Source: Candidatus Salinicoccus stercoripullorum | Lineage (GTDB): Bacteria; Bacillota; Bacilli; Staphylococcales; Salinicoccaceae | Assembly (NCBI GenBank): GCA_019113295.1 | Contig: DXHR01000018.1 | Coordinates: 186,001 to 250,000 of the forward strand | Direction of reading: 5' to 3' | Length of the DNA stretch: 64,000 bases | Part shown: one piece after another, positions 51,683 through 56,195 of the stretch | Position numbering within the stretch: the stretch's first letter is position 1 | How the letters are laid out: every line of letters starts with the position of its first letter | Made by a program: the position numbers and the translations under genes | The notes under the pieces: generated by a model | The model's input: only the letters and a program-made list of their open reading frames with translations | Databases searched by the model: none | Told to the model about the DNA's origin: nothing

Positions 51683-54565
51683 ATGCAGGTCAATCCGGAC
51701 AATCTTTTGAATGCGTATGAAAGAGGATTTTTGGATAGGAACACGAACAAGGTTTCACATTACCCTCCCAAACTGATCATCAATTCCAATGAAGAAAATA
51801 TTCTGTCCCCGATTCTCGATGAAATGGAGATATGTGACTCCTTCATAATCTCCGTCGCTTTCATTACTGAAGGCGGGCTGGCTACCTTGAAATCAACGCT
51901 TTACGAGCTTGGTAAAAAGAACGTCAGGGGAAGGATAGTGACTTCCACATATTTGAACTTCAACAGTCCCAAGGTCTTCAAGGAACTCATGAAATTGAAG
52001 AATGTCGATGTAAAAGTGACAGACCAGGAAGGTTTCCATGCGAAAGGCTACATATTCAATAATAGGAAATACAGTGCCATGTTCATCGGCAGTTCCAACC
52101 TGACTGATACTGCCCTCAAGAAAAATTATGAGTATAATCTGAAACTGACCAGCCTTGAAAACGGGGAAGTCATCAACCATTTCAATGAGAATTTCGAACA
52201 GTTGTGGGCAGAAGCCGTACCAATCGATGGATCATGGATCGAAAAGTACGAAGCGGAATATGCAGAAGCACCGGAGCGCCGGAAGATTATCCAGATCATT
52301 GAGGATCAATCCAAATATGAATATAAATCGATCACAAAAGATAAGATCGAACCGAATCTGATGCAGGACGAAGCACTGACACAGCTCAGAAACCTGCGGG
52401 CAACAGGAAAAAAGAAGGGGCTTGTCATATCAGCGACGGGTACAGGAAAGACTTATCTTTCAGCTTTCGATGTAAAACAGTACAAACCGAAAAGGATGCT
52501 TTTCCTCGCCCACCGCGAGCAGATACTGGATAAATCCAGAAAAGATTTCTCTTCCCTGATCGACGAACCTCCTTCCGCTTTCGGAGTCTATAGTGGAAAC
52601 CAGAAGGATACCGATGCCAAATACCTTTTCGCAACTGTCCAGACACTTTCAAAGGAACGGAATCTGAAACAGTTCGATCCAAGTGACTTTGATTATATCA
52701 TCATCGATGAGGCACATCGCTCCGGTGCTTCAACATATAAAACGATAATCGATTATCTGCGCCCCCGTTTCCTCCTCGGCATGACCGCCACTCCCGAGAG
52801 GACCGACGATATGGATATATTTTCTTTATTCGACTATAACATTGCCTATGAAATCAGACTGCAGCGAGCGCTGGAAGAGGAAATCCTCTCACCATTCCAC
52901 TACTTCGGTGTCACTGACTTTGAACAGAACGGAAGCGTAATCGATGAAACGGCATCACTTGCCAATCTGGTAAGCAATGAACGCATCGATCACATCACAG
53001 AAAAAATCGAATATTACGGCCAATCCGGCGAAGAGCGCCGTGGGCTCATGTTCGTCTCAAACAGGGAGGAAGCTGCTGAAATGAGCGGCATGCTGAATGC
53101 ACGTGGCTACAGGACCGTCCCCCTCACAGGGAAGAATTCCCAAGAGGAACGAAGGGAGGCCGTCCGGAAACTCGAGTCCGATCAGCTGGATTACATCATC
53201 ACCGTGGATATATTCAATGAAGGGGTCGATATCCCCTCGATCAACCAGGTTGTCATGCTGAGGCAGACACAGTCCAGCATCATATTCATCCAACAGCTCG
53301 GACGCGGACTCAGAAAGCATGTAAAAAAGGATTATCTGACCGTCATAGATTTCATCGGCAATTATAAGAATAACTACATGATACCCATAGCACTCACCGG
53401 TGATAAATCCTATGACAAGGACCGGCTCAGGAAATCAATTAACACACGTAACACGATATCCGGAGTCTCAACGATCAACTTCGAGAAGATCGCCAAAGAA
53501 AAGATCTTTGAATCGATCAATACATCCACTTTGAATTCCCAGAAGTTCATGCGGGAGATGTATGTCTATTTGAAGAATAAGATCGGCCACCAGCCAGGAC
53601 TTGTAGACTTCAAAAGAGACAAGGACACGATGGATCCGCTCATCATCTTCAGCAAATTCAACCATTACATTGAATTCCTTCAGAAGATAAAAGAAATCGA
53701 CGTTACAATTCCCGACATGCACCATCGTATACTGACATTCATTTCCCAGGAAATGTCCGGAGGCAAACGGGTCCAGGAAACGCTGTTGATGCTTGAAGCG
53801 ATGCAAGGTCCCGTCGATGTACGGGAATTCCAACTGAAGATGCTCAAAGAAGGCTATCACATGACAGACCAGACGATGGAGTCAATCATAGGCGTGTTGA
53901 CCCATCGATTCTTCAAAAAGCAGGAACAGGAAAAATACGGCTGTCCAATTGTGGAACTTGATGACGGAATAATTTCACTTACCCCTGAATTCTCCGAAGT
54001 ATTGAAAACTGACATCATGAAAGAGCAGGTTGAAGATGTACTCCAATTGGCACTGCTCAACTCGGAGGACTATGACCAGTCAGAAGAACTCTCATTGAAC
54101 AGTAAGTATGGCCGGAAAGATGTATGCCGTCTGCTGAACTGGGACAAGGACGAAGCGTCCACGATGTACGGTTATAAGCATAAGCATGGGACGTGCCCCA
54201 TTTTCATCACATATCACAAAGACGATGAAATCGAAGAGACGATAAAATATGAAGATCAATTCCTCGATCAGCATACTCTGAGATGGTTTACACGAAGCAA
54301 CCGCAGATTGATTTCCAAAGAGATCAGGAATATTTTGGATGATCATCGGGAAAATGGGCTCCCCATCTATATATTCGTCAAAAAGGACGATGACGAAGGA
54401 AAGGATTTCTACTACCTCGGAAAAGCGGAGATTGACTATGATACTGTCCAAGAGACAACGATGAATGGCCTGGAAGATGGAAAGCCCGTCGTCACCATGA
54501 ATATGATGATGGAACATGCATTGGATTACGAAATCTACAGATACCTTGAGGCCCATACACATTAA
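51683..54565 (+). CDS. PLD-nuclease / SF2 helicase / DUF3427 protein
   Basis: The 960-residue protein has three parts. Residues about 30-180 form a phospholipase-D-like nuclease domain with one HKD motif (FHAKGYIFNNRKYSAMFIGSSNL). Residues about 225-600 are a superfamily 2 helicase: Walker [53 protein letters not shown]. The rest matches the DUF3427 pattern (SKYGRKDVCRLLNWDKDEAS, CPIFITYHKDDE). Homologues occur in many Firmicutes; function is not established, and DNA repair or phage defence are both possible. It stands alone, with a terminator behind it and no linked methylase or toxin. Confidence 0.88.
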   Translation: MQVNPDNLLNAYERGFLDRNTNKVSHYPPKLIINSNEENILSPILDEMEICDSFIISVAFITEGGLATLKSTLYELGKKNVRGRIVTSTYLNFNSPKVFKELMKLKNVDVKVTDQEGFHAKGYIFNNRKYSAMFIGSSNLTDTALKKNYEYNLKLTSLENGEVINHFNENFEQLWAEAVPIDGSWIEKYEAEYAEAPERRKIIQIIEDQSKYEYKSITKDKIEPNLMQDEALTQLRNLRATGKKKGLVISATGTGKTYLSAFDVKQYKPKRMLFLAHREQILDKSRKDFSSLIDEPPSAFGVYSGNQKDTDAKYLFATVQTLSKERNLKQFDPSDFDYIIIDEAHRSGASTYKTIIDYLRPRFLLGMTATPERTDDMDIFSLFDYNIAYEIRLQRALEEEILSPFHYFGVTDFEQNGSVIDETASLANLVSNERIDHITEKIEYYGQSGEERRGLMFVSNREEAAEMSGMLNARGYRTVPLTGKNSQEERREAVRKLESDQLDYIITVDIFNEGVDIPSINQVVMLRQTQSSIIFIQQLGRGLRKHVKKDYLTVIDFIGNYKNNYMIPIALTGDKSYDKDRLRKSINTRNTISGVSTINFEKIAKEKIFESINTSTLNSQKFMREMYVYLKNKIGHQPGLVDFKRDKDTMDPLIIFSKFNHYIEFLQKIKEIDVTIPDMHHRILTFISQEMSGGKRVQETLLMLEAMQGPVDVREFQLKMLKEGYHMTDQTMESIIGVLTHRFFKKQEQEKYGCPIVELDDGIISLTPEFSEVLKTDIMKEQVEDVLQLALLNSEDYDQSEELSLNSKYGRKDVCRLLNWDKDEASTMYGYKHKHGTCPIFITYHKDDEIEETIKYEDQFLDQHTLRWFTRSNRRLISKEIRNILDDHRENGLPIYIFVKKDDDEGKDFYYLGKAEIDYDTVQETTMNGLEDGKPVVTMNMMMEHALDYEIYRYLEAHTH

Positions 54566-54601
54566 AAAACGAGTTGCGGAAAATGATCCGCAACTCGTTT
54601 T
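54566..54601. terminator. Bidirectional terminator between the helicase gene and mpfA
   Basis: aaaacgagttgcgga and tccgcaactcgtttt form a perfect 15-base stem with a 6-base loop, with A and T tracts on both sides, between convergent genes. Confidence 0.95.
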
Positions 54602-54605
54602 GATA

Positions 54606-55946
54606 TCATTCCTCGTCATCTTCCTCGTCGTCGGAGGTCTGACGGTTATAATCTTTAAGCAATGCGACCTGCTTGATGAGGTGGTTTTCCATATCGAGCA
54701 CGATCCATTTGTCGTTTTCTGTGTTTACATAGTCATCGGTTTCGATATCTGTGTTGATGCTCTGTATCCAGCCGCCGATTGTATCGATGTCTTCACTCTT
54801 GTCGAATGTGATGTCGAATTTCTCTTCCAGGTCATCGAGCAGTACGCGGCCGTTGATGTGATAGATGTTGTCTTCCACTTTGACCAGCTCGGGCTCTTCG
54901 TCTTCATCGAACTCGTCCCGGATTTCACCGACGATTTCCTCGAGGATGTCCTCCATCGTTATCATGCCGGCCGTGCCGCCGTACTCGTCTATGATGAGTG
55001 CGATATGGACGCGTTCTCTCTGCATTTTGATGAGTGCATCGCTGATGCGTGATACTTCGGTGATGAGCGGCAGCTCGTGCATGTATTCTTCAGGTGTGAC
55101 GTCTTCATCGGACACATGGTTGGTAAGGAATTCCCTTACGTTGATGAATCCGAGGATCTGGTCTTTGTCGCCGGTTGAATCTGCGACGGGGTATCTTGTG
55201 AAGTTATGCTCTTTGACGGTTTCAAGGACGTCATCGATGTTCACCGGATCGGTCAGGGTGATCATCTGTGTTCTCGGCACCATGATGTCTTTGGCAAGCC
55301 TTTCATCGAATGAGAAGATGTTCTGCATGTATGCGAGTTCTGTCTGGTTGATCTCCCCACTCTGGTAGCTCTGTGTCATGATGATCTTGAGCTCATCTTC
55401 AGAATGGGCCTGTTCTGTCGGAACATCTTTGAATCCGATTATCCTGAGCACCAGCCTGGATGTACCGTTCATGGACCAGATGAGCGGCTTCATGATGACA
55501 CCGAAGAAATACAATGGTCCTGAGAATGTCATGGCCATCTTTTCTGCGTATTGTATTGCGACTGTCTTTGGTGCAAGCTCACCGACGACGACGTGTATGA
55601 ATGTCACAATGAAGAATGCGGCAGCTACAGTGAACACCGTATTGAGTTCCTGCGGCAGACCGAAGAATGAGAACAGCGGATGCAGTATGACTTCGAATGT
55701 CGATTCACCGATCCACCCGAGTCCAAGTGCTGTCACGGTAATCCCGAGCTGACAGGCGGAAAGGTAGTAATCGAGCTGTGCGGTCATGCCCTGCACACGC
55801 TTTGCCGGCCTGCTCCCTTCCTCCACAAGATGGTCTATGCGTGATTTCCTTGCTTTTACCAATGAAAACTCAGAGCCTACAAATAACATTGTAAGCAGTA
55901 TGAGCAATGTAAATAATGCTAAATTTGTTAAAGTGGATATGTCCAA
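54606..55946 (-). CDS. mpfA: CNNM/CorC-family Mg2+ exporter homologue (MpfA-like)
   Basis: The 446-residue protein has a DUF21 membrane domain with about four hydrophobic segments (LFTLLILLTMLFVGSEFSLVKARK, ACQLGITVTALGLGWIGES, HVVVGELAPKTVAIQ), a CBS pair (DIMVPRTQMITLTD, VHIALIIDEYGGTAGMITMEDILEE) and a C-terminal CorC_HlyC domain ending in an Asp/Glu-rich tail. The S. aureus homologue MpfA protects against Mg2+ excess. The start is a TTG at 55946 whose SD (AAAGGGA) lies in a perfect palindrome; an unusual leader precedes it. Confidence 0.92.
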   Translation of the reverse strand: MDISTLTNLALFTLLILLTMLFVGSEFSLVKARKSRIDHLVEEGSRPAKRVQGMTAQLDYYLSACQLGITVTALGLGWIGESTFEVILHPLFSFFGLPQELNTVFTVAAAFFIVTFIHVVVGELAPKTVAIQYAEKMAMTFSGPLYFFGVIMKPLIWSMNGTSRLVLRIIGFKDVPTEQAHSEDELKIIMTQSYQSGEINQTELAYMQNIFSFDERLAKDIMVPRTQMITLTDPVNIDDVLETVKEHNFTRYPVADSTGDKDQILGFINVREFLTNHVSDEDVTPEEYMHELPLITEVSRISDALIKMQRERVHIALIIDEYGGTAGMITMEDILEEIVGEIRDEFDEDEEPELVKVEDNIYHINGRVLLDDLEEKFDITFDKSEDIDTIGGWIQSINTDIETDDYVNTENDKWIVLDMENHLIKQVALLKDYNRQTSDDEEDDEE

Positions 55947-55951
55947 TTAGT

Positions 55952-55969
55952 TCCCTTTATATAAAGGGA
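55952..55969 (-). promoter_or_regulatory. Palindrome covering the mpfA Shine-Dalgarno
   Basis: TCCCTTTATATAAAGGGA is a perfect 18-base palindrome directly before mpfA. As RNA it would form a 7-base hairpin that hides the AAAGGGA used as SD before the TTG start. This suggests control of translation initiation. Confidence 0.6.
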
Positions 55970-55970
55970 T

Positions 55971-56120
55971 TCACCTCCGGTAATTTTGACTACAATTTTT
56001 CATAAAAGCGCTTTCTACTCTGCCTTCTGTTCTGCTGTCCATATTGCGCGTCAACACTTGATTCTGCATATCAGCTTTCAAATTCGCCTTCCCAATTGTA
56101 GTCACCTCCACTTTTCCCAT
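55971..56120 (-). other. Possible 49-codon leader ORF or structured leader RNA of mpfA
   Basis: An ATG at 56120 opens 49 codons (MGKVEVTTIGKANLKADM...) that end in CGG AGG TGA next to the mpfA SD hairpin. No SD precedes it. The same stretch holds an 11-base inverted repeat, TGACTACAATT at 55987-55997 and AATTGTAGTCA at 56094-56104 (plus-strand reading), which would close a domain of 96 bases in the RNA. It may be a leader peptide, a structured regulatory RNA, or both. Confidence 0.4.
56003..56016 (-). promoter_or_regulatory. cre-like CcpA site upstream of mpfA
   Basis: TAAAAGCGCTTTCT (plus reading) differs from the ideal cre TGAAAGCGCTTTCA at two positions and keeps the central AAAGCGCTTT palindrome. 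It lies 57 bases upstream of the mpfA start, inside the presumed leader. Confidence 0.5.
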
Positions 56121-56195
56121 AATAATTAAGGGTATTTTATCATAATTTTACACATCTTTGCCACCTATATATAACATCCATAAATATTTCATGGA

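Follow-up and report, generated by a model that had tools for sequence, protein, structure and literature searches.

A presumably translated leader with a probable -1 ribosomal frameshift site upstream of the exporter gene mpfA in Salinicoccus and its relatives

Frameshifting by -1 that is stimulated by a Shine-Dalgarno sequence (SD), as described for dnaX and for insertion sequences (IS) of the IS3 type, combines a Z_ZZN motif, an SD 6-17 nucleotides (nt) upstream of it and a long -1 frame under selection (PMC5009743, PMC4066793). The leader of the mpfA gene of Candidatus Salinicoccus stercoripullorum, which we analyze here, resembles these sites in all three respects, with G_GGA as the motif. 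It is located on the minus strand of a 64,000-nt stretch of contig DXHR01000018.1 (contig positions 186,001 to 250,000; hereafter the window, in which all coordinates are counted). It differs from the dnaX and IS3-type sites in that the slip would occur directly after the start codon, with the initiating SD doubling as stimulator, in that selection appears to act on the passage of ribosomes and not on a product, and in that there is no slippery triplet for the A-site.

Other described systems share parts of this arrangement. In the same bacterial group, the arginine-sensing upstream open reading frame (uORF) rbfL of Staphylococcus aureus is also very short, contains AGG, precedes the regulated gene and acts on translation initiation (PMC13009471); however, rbfL overlaps the ribosome-binding site in frame 0, without a frameshift or a helix like P1 (see below), and AGG is not rare in the present organism. 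The mgtL and corL leaders of enteric bacteria (PMC11552253 for corL) combine a translated leader frame and a structured 5' region with a magnesium transport gene, but they act on Rho-dependent termination, involve no frameshift and are unrelated in sequence. Phage T4 genes 38 and 25 have a split ribosome-binding site, in which a hairpin between SD and start codon brings both to a functional distance (PMC3014915). The hairpin before mpfA may do likewise, although here its 3' arm is usually SD-like too and the layout is conserved throughout an entire bacterial protein family. M-box and yybP-ykoY riboswitches are, like the mpfA leader, 5' leader RNAs of metal-transport genes, but there is no match to them in sequence or structure in Rfam. 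The control of bacterial magnesium export is poorly known: the portions of the mpfA literature considered here describe no regulator or leader of the gene, and mpfA goes unmentioned in the main text of the S. aureus start-site map (PMC13009471).

A short upstream frame and an open -1 frame

The upstream regions of relatives share a common layout, consisting of a first SD (SD1, GGAGGTGA), the codons (T/A)TG GGA AGG, the rest of a short frame with its stop codon, a variable loop, the 3' arm of helix P1, an A/T-rich stretch, a second SD (SD2, again GGAGGTGA), hairpin H and the TTG start codon of mpfA (Table 1). In our view, this leader probably controls translation by means of programmed -1 ribosomal frameshifting, which would send ribosomes into the mpfA start region. 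The evidence is all comparative and related leaders are not independent; clusters and pairs of leaders were used to lessen the effect of kinship. The invariant columns of the alignment are those of the two SDs, the start codons, GGGAAG and H.

A protein search found mpfA homologues in 60 of 60 relatives. With model R1, built from 42 leaders, the leader was located in 140 of 157 genomes of the order Staphylococcales, the exceptions being family f4 and two others; the E-values are rough, the training set being among the genomes searched. R1 is mainly a sequence model, with four base pairs, and hence gives no evidence for P1. Before other genes in 400 Bacilli genomes, the leader pattern gave outside the order only chance-looking matches, which were not inspected singly. 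Three inspected weak secondary covariance matches (L217, L219 and L220) are in or beside unrelated genes and were discarded; the one in L218 is a MerR paralogue.

Among 110 distinct leaders, the uORF starts with ATG in 71, including the Staphylococcus-type genomes, and with TTG in 39. Its second codon is GGA (108) or GGG (2) and its third AGG (109) or AGA (1), followed by one or two free codons (six in one leader) and TAG, TAA or TGA. Three more leaders, scored by the script as having no uORF, carry MGRI* or MGRS* behind weaker SDs, for a total of 113. GGT, GGC and CGN never occur at codons 2 and 3, although CGN does at codon 4; therefore, the bases, and not only the residues, are kept at these codons. 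The distance from GGAGG to the uORF start is mostly 7-9 nt. A short reading frame with a ribosome-binding site, as in leader-peptide attenuators, precedes mpfA in all 113 distinct leaders and is presumably translated. A preliminary description of the window overlooked SD1 and the five-codon, TTG-started frame that it serves. The 49-codon frame that it reported instead (56120-55971) is present, but is not an ordinary reading frame: it lacks a ribosome-binding site of its own and is the -1 frame of the uORF, extended upstream.

In all 113 distinct leaders, no stop codon interrupts this -1 frame before the end of the 3' arm of P1. In 102 it reaches SD2 without a stop codon, and in the other 11 it stops 4-9 nt before it. 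Between the uORF start and SD2, frame 0 contains 3.27 stop codons on average, the +1 frame 2.47 and the -1 frame 0.10. From dinucleotide shuffles, an open -1 frame is expected in 18.8% of leaders; when the leaders are grouped into 20 clusters whose loops share few 6-mers, it is open in all clusters (log10 P -14.6). In 37 independent pairs of close relatives, stop-changing substitutions are absent from the -1 frame (0 against 7.9 expected), compared with 14 against 19.8 and 21 against 18.2 in the other two frames. Synonymous changes in the -1 frame are not enriched (0.160 versus 0.242); together with the absence of stop changes, this indicates that the passage of ribosomes is selected and not the peptide. 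The -1 frame ends in SD2 in 38 leaders, in H in 28, against the TTG in 30, overlapping or just past the TTG in 6 and just before SD2 in 11, always between -40 and +19 nt from the mpfA start and in all three phases. As the loop lengths span all three phases, the open frame is no by-product of a fixed frame at SD2. An open and selected -1 frame downstream of the motif is thus found in the leaders, as it is where the -1 frame encodes a MerR domain (see below). At locus L083, where the mpfA homologue is a distant one, the -1 frame from about 154 to 56 nt before this gene encodes a leader peptide whose tail is hydrophobic (MGKALLKVTSLQNKSFTGAAPLLGAAAVLLICL) and which may be a small membrane peptide.

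In the mechanism we propose, ribosomes would load at SD1 and start at TTG (or ATG). Those that stay in frame 0 would make fMet-Gly-Arg plus one or two residues and stop. A fraction would slip one base back at G_GGA, the peptidyl-tRNA-Gly re-pairing from GGA to GGG by using the last G of the start codon, with AAG as the next -1 codon. SD1, still paired to the 16S rRNA while the ribosome moves to codon 2, would pull the ribosome back by this one base. Slipped ribosomes would continue for about 25-48 codons in the -1 frame, through the 3' arm of P1, and their termination in SD2, in H or beside the TTG would open H, allowing handover to mpfA by translational coupling. Of this, we infer the slippage itself, the activation rather than repression of mpfA, and a signal that may be Mg2+ or another state of the translation machinery.

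G_GGA belongs to the Z_ZZN tetramers; an SD is stimulatory when it precedes the motif by 6-17 nt (PMC4066793). The related motif G_GGA_AAG is highly shift-prone, and for one IS element a single SD is said to serve both initiation and frameshifting (PMC5009743). In the leaders, G_GGA or G_GGG is in frame 0, within a heptamer that is not canonical, and SD1 is about 10-12 nt before the second base of the motif. This spacing range and the single-SD element together make it plausible that the initiating SD acts as the pull-back stimulator.

Table 1. Features of the mpfA leader in window coordinates.
Feature	Position	Strand	Basis or remark
Predicted extended -10 promoter element, TGATAAAAT	56134..56142	-	predicted transcription start site ~56127
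SD1, GGAGGTGA; uORF ribosome-binding site, candidate -1 frameshift stimulator	56102..56109	-	sequence
P1 5' arm, TGACTACAATT; overlaps SD1 and uORF start codon	56094..56104	-	covariation
uORF, frame 0, 5 codons, TTG GGA AGG CGA ATT TGA (MGRRI*)	56078..56095	-	conservation
Proposed slip site, G_GGA_AGG	56087..56093	-	base-level conservation beyond the peptide; -1 frame open in all leaders
-1 frame, GGG AAG GCG AAT ... CGG AGG TGA, 40 codons	55971..56093	-	ends at TGA inside SD2
P1 3' arm, AATTGTAGTCA; within -1 frame, 8 nt upstream of SD2	55987..55997	-	covariation
SD2, GGAGGTGA; upstream SD of mpfA, holds -1 frame stop codon	55971..55978	-	invariant in alignment
Hairpin H, TCCCTTTATATAAAGGGA; between SD2 and TTG, AAAGGGA in 3' arm	55952..55969	-	SD-hairpin-TTG layout across Bacilli CNNM genes
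mpfA, CNNM/CorC-family exporter homologue	54606..55946	-	TTG start at 55946; Pfam match

MerR genes in the same -1 frame

In other Bacilli, a gene for a MerR regulator (identified by Pfam) often directly precedes the mpfA homologue. At 84 of 103 MerR loci, MerR is wholly in the -1 frame of an SD-NTG-GGR start. Eighteen of these 84 genes lack any in-frame ATG, GTG or TTG, and at 47 MerR loci the in-frame starts occur only without a proper SD. G_GGA or G_GGG is present at codons 1-2 in 83 of the 84, as it is in all leaders. Startless MerR genes in the -1 frame were found in Exiguobacterium, Jeotgalibacillus, Pseudalkalibacillus, Fictibacillus, Virgibacillus, Bacillus methanolicus, Neobacillus and Bacillus sp.; the MerR frame of Exiguobacterium contains an in-frame TGA 9 nt before the GGG, and the start region in Fictibacillus reads TGA TTT GGG AAG. 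The MerR loci of Cohnella and Nocardia relatives mostly have ordinary in-frame starts. For two plasmids, of Sporosarcina and Priestia (L324:1799-1819 and L325:1799-1819), NCBI places the MerR start at an ATT within the conserved domain, so that the annotated protein lacks its conserved N-terminus; on both, an SD-TTG/ATG-GGR start is located 20 bases upstream of the annotated ATT, in frame 0. Nothing relevant was found in the literature on MerR and frameshifting or on yhdQ/yhdP.

Some MerR loci deviate in detail. In a Macrococcus-like paralogous operon (L048, L049 and L218), MerR occupies the -1 frame of SD-TTGGGAAG(G/T), and the mpfA paralogue behind it has a spacer hairpin without SD; in L048, the MerR frame is closed upstream by TAA. 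Seven loci (L298, L313, L317, L319, L321, L323 and L325) have the variant start ATG GGG CTN/TTN, with four G in a row and MerR in the -1 frame, which suggests that the AGG codon is dispensable when the slip motif is G_GGG. In Planococcus-type genomes (L222-L227, L267, L271-L274 and, in part, L281-L301), the stop codon of the uORF (MGRT*, MGRS*, MGRI* or MGRD*) is in a TAATG and overlaps an ATG of the MerR frame.

The -1 frames of mpfA leaders begin with MGKA-LK and MerR proteins with MGKALLKIG. This shared start makes it probable that the leader is a stripped-down MerR gene, from which it would have been derived; the ancestral form would be a MerR gene before the mpfA homologue with the same frameshift at its start. 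A wider idea, which we put forward tentatively and hold to be somewhat less than even in likelihood, is that a conserved regulatory circuit of Bacilli uses frameshift efficiency just after initiation to sense Mg2+ or the ribosome's state. Originally, this efficiency would set the level of MerR, a regulator that could be made only by way of the slip; in Staphylococcales, MerR would have been lost and the slip would drive ribosomes into the exporter start.

The P1 helix, hairpin H and the surroundings of the leader

The exact 11-base arms of P1 and the 96 bases between them were correctly given in the preliminary description, as was the perfect 18-base palindrome of H, 3' of SD2. The 5' arm of P1 comprises the uORF start codon, the spacer before it and the 3' part of SD1; the 3' arm precedes SD2 by 5-12 nt in every relative tested. 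For 20 distinct 5' arms, pairing with the cognate 3' arm has a mean energy of -14.1 kcal/mol, which none of 20,000 permutations of the partners reached (-9.25 +/- 0.63 kcal/mol when permuted); these arms come from related genomes and are not fully independent. Even the divergent 5' arms GACTACAAT, GTCACAAT and AGCTCAAT each have a matching 3' partner. Compensatory changes are thus present in homologous leaders, and by these sequence comparisons P1 is a real covarying helix across Staphylococcales. The leader folds more stably than all 200 shuffles (z -2.8), and the mean formation probability of P1 is 0.75. P1 would pair the uORF start site with the segment before SD2, closing the uORF when no ribosome holds the region open. 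In the minimum free energy fold of the window, UUACC and GGUGA form a local hairpin over SD2 that, judging by an alignment inspected by eye, is not kept in relatives.

The start codon of mpfA is TTG in 125 of 125 relatives. Stable hairpins of unrelated sequence fill the spacer from GGAGGTG to the start in nearly all Bacilli CNNM genes examined, ending about 4-7 nt before the NTG; in most of them, the hairpin would restore a normal spacing between SD and start. The SD-hairpin-TTG order is widespread upstream of CNNM genes in loci L081-L110, where the hairpins are often long. The 3' arm is often SD-like, the exception being the two Macrococcus-like paralogues. The palindrome had been described as burying the SD of mpfA. 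It does contain AAAGGGA in its 3' arm, but a strong SD, GGAGGTGA, is located just 5' of the hairpin in nearly every Bacilli relative, and in the two Macrococcus-like paralogues there is no SD in the hairpin; it may instead bridge the SD to the start. Both roles are possible for H, a split ribosome-binding site or, because of the proximal SD-like sequence in the 3' arm, SD sequestration.

Upstream of the uORF, a TGnTAnnnT promoter pattern is predicted in 113 of 113 leaders; the transcription start predicted in the window is upstream of the leader, not downstream of 56094. Downstream, the mpfA product has the Pfam domains CNNM (1.1e-50), CBS and CorC_HlyC. A long perfect inverted repeat (AAAACGAGTTGCGGA..TCCGCAACTCGTTTT, 54558-54609), located where the convergent mpfA and helicase-like genes meet, is likely a bidirectional terminator. 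A weak Rfam match to MIR405 at the same position was judged to be noise.

Competing explanations and significance

Several observations weigh against the frameshift mechanism. G_GGA_AGG is not a canonical X_XXZ_ZZN heptamer and the A-site tRNA cannot re-pair perfectly, nor was a conserved downstream stimulatory structure identified in the leaders. When P1 is opened in silico by a ribosome on the uORF, the predicted exposure of SD2 is not consistently changed (0.40 versus 0.44), and P1 is hence an unlikely switch of SD2 accessibility. One genus (g13; four genomes, L213-L216) lacks the uORF start and retains a P1-like hairpin, for example GTGGCTGTC/GACAGTCAC, about 8-11 nt before SD2, which suggests that P1 may have a role of its own beside SD2. 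In the Planococcus-type genomes, reinitiation at TAATG is an alternative to slippage, and both could act. Finally, AGG makes up 1.41% of the codons of five window genes and is the commonest arginine codon; a hungry AGG, or arginine starvation, was therefore rejected as general trigger. It may still apply in low-GC staphylococci; in S. aureus, AGG is a very rare arginine codon (0.15%; PMC13009471). For the signal, Mg2+ is a reasonable guess, given that MpfA serves S. aureus as its Mg2+ export factor (PMC6711546, PMC5122736). In an S. aureus cshB mutant, which lacks the RNA helicase CshB, SA0657 (mpfA) mRNA is raised (PMC5122736); this fits a duplex-dependent leader, although it is not proof.

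The same frameshift might have the opposite sign, ribosomes in the -1 frame covering SD2 and H, blocking initiation and repressing mpfA. In S. aureus, ribosomes that pause on rbfL block rbf (PMC13009471), translation of corL is inverse to expression of corA (PMC11552253), and ribosomes terminating inside SD2 (38 of 113 leaders) or H (28) would cover the mpfA start region. The stops right against the TTG (30) or overlapping or just after it (6) are more like coupling, and an opened H would free the SD of its 3' arm. We favour activation by coupling and regard occlusion as a serious, if less likely, rival. An ordinary leader-peptide attenuator, in which only the frame-0 MGRX* peptide is translated and stalling or occupancy opens P1 and alters mpfA translation, would account for the very strong conservation of the uORF and for the overlap of P1 with its start site, and has parallels in the rare-arginine leader peptides of S. 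aureus (PMC13009471). The openness of the -1 frame would then be incidental, which its probability across clusters, the missing stop changes, the MerR genes without start codons in the same frame and the lack of a consistent change in predicted SD2 accessibility make improbable. The preliminary description came close in proposing a leader-peptide switch, as translation of the leader is very probably involved and P1 covaries, but entry into the -1 frame had been overlooked.

Slippage would not be needed at all if ribosomes initiated directly at the codon overlapping the uORF start. This codon is ATT in the window, S. aureus reportedly uses AUU and AUA starts preceded by extended SDs (PMC13009471), and NCBI gives ATT starts to two MerR genes, though at a later codon. 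Among the leaders, it is AAT in 64, ATT in 23, GTT in 15, CAT in 6, GAT in 4 and CTT in 1, so that 90 of 113 have a codon other than ATT; in the MerR genes of Exiguobacterium and Fictibacillus it is TTT. As the conserved element is the frame-0 NTG and the overlapping codon is mostly AAT, GTT, CAT or GAT, direct initiation is quite improbable. A metabolite or ion riboswitch, in which P1 controls an SD-sequestering hairpin, had also been put forward, and a covarying helix that closes a domain, a hairpin adjoining the start and a downstream gene for an Mg2+ exporter agree with it. The enclosed domain, however, is freely variable, both in sequence and in length (64-109 nt from the uORF stop onwards in a first set), and its alignment in relatives has no conserved ligand-binding core, junction or pocket; the conserved nucleotides are those of SD, start codon and slip site. 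An Rfam cmscan at E<=5 returned only RyhB and miRNA noise under the gathering score, so no Rfam riboswitch family is matched, M-box and yybP-ykoY included, in neither of which the preliminary description had seen a likeness. With the accessibility of SD2 not consistently altered by opening P1, a riboswitch is very improbable and that proposal was abandoned.

If the frameshift at the mpfA leader is confirmed, it would represent a new way of gene control by ribosome slippage, and conserved frameshift sites beside a start codon would form a new class of recoding signal. A genome-wide frameshift screen can, by its own account in the section on prfB, miss shifts less than 50 nt from the start codon (PMC3711429). 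The frameshift would also explain why MerR regulators adjoining the exporter are truncated in NCBI annotation. The leader offers a simple reporter system for asking whether frameshifting senses Mg2+ and, being structured and probably translated, a concrete target for the effect of CshB on mpfA mRNA.
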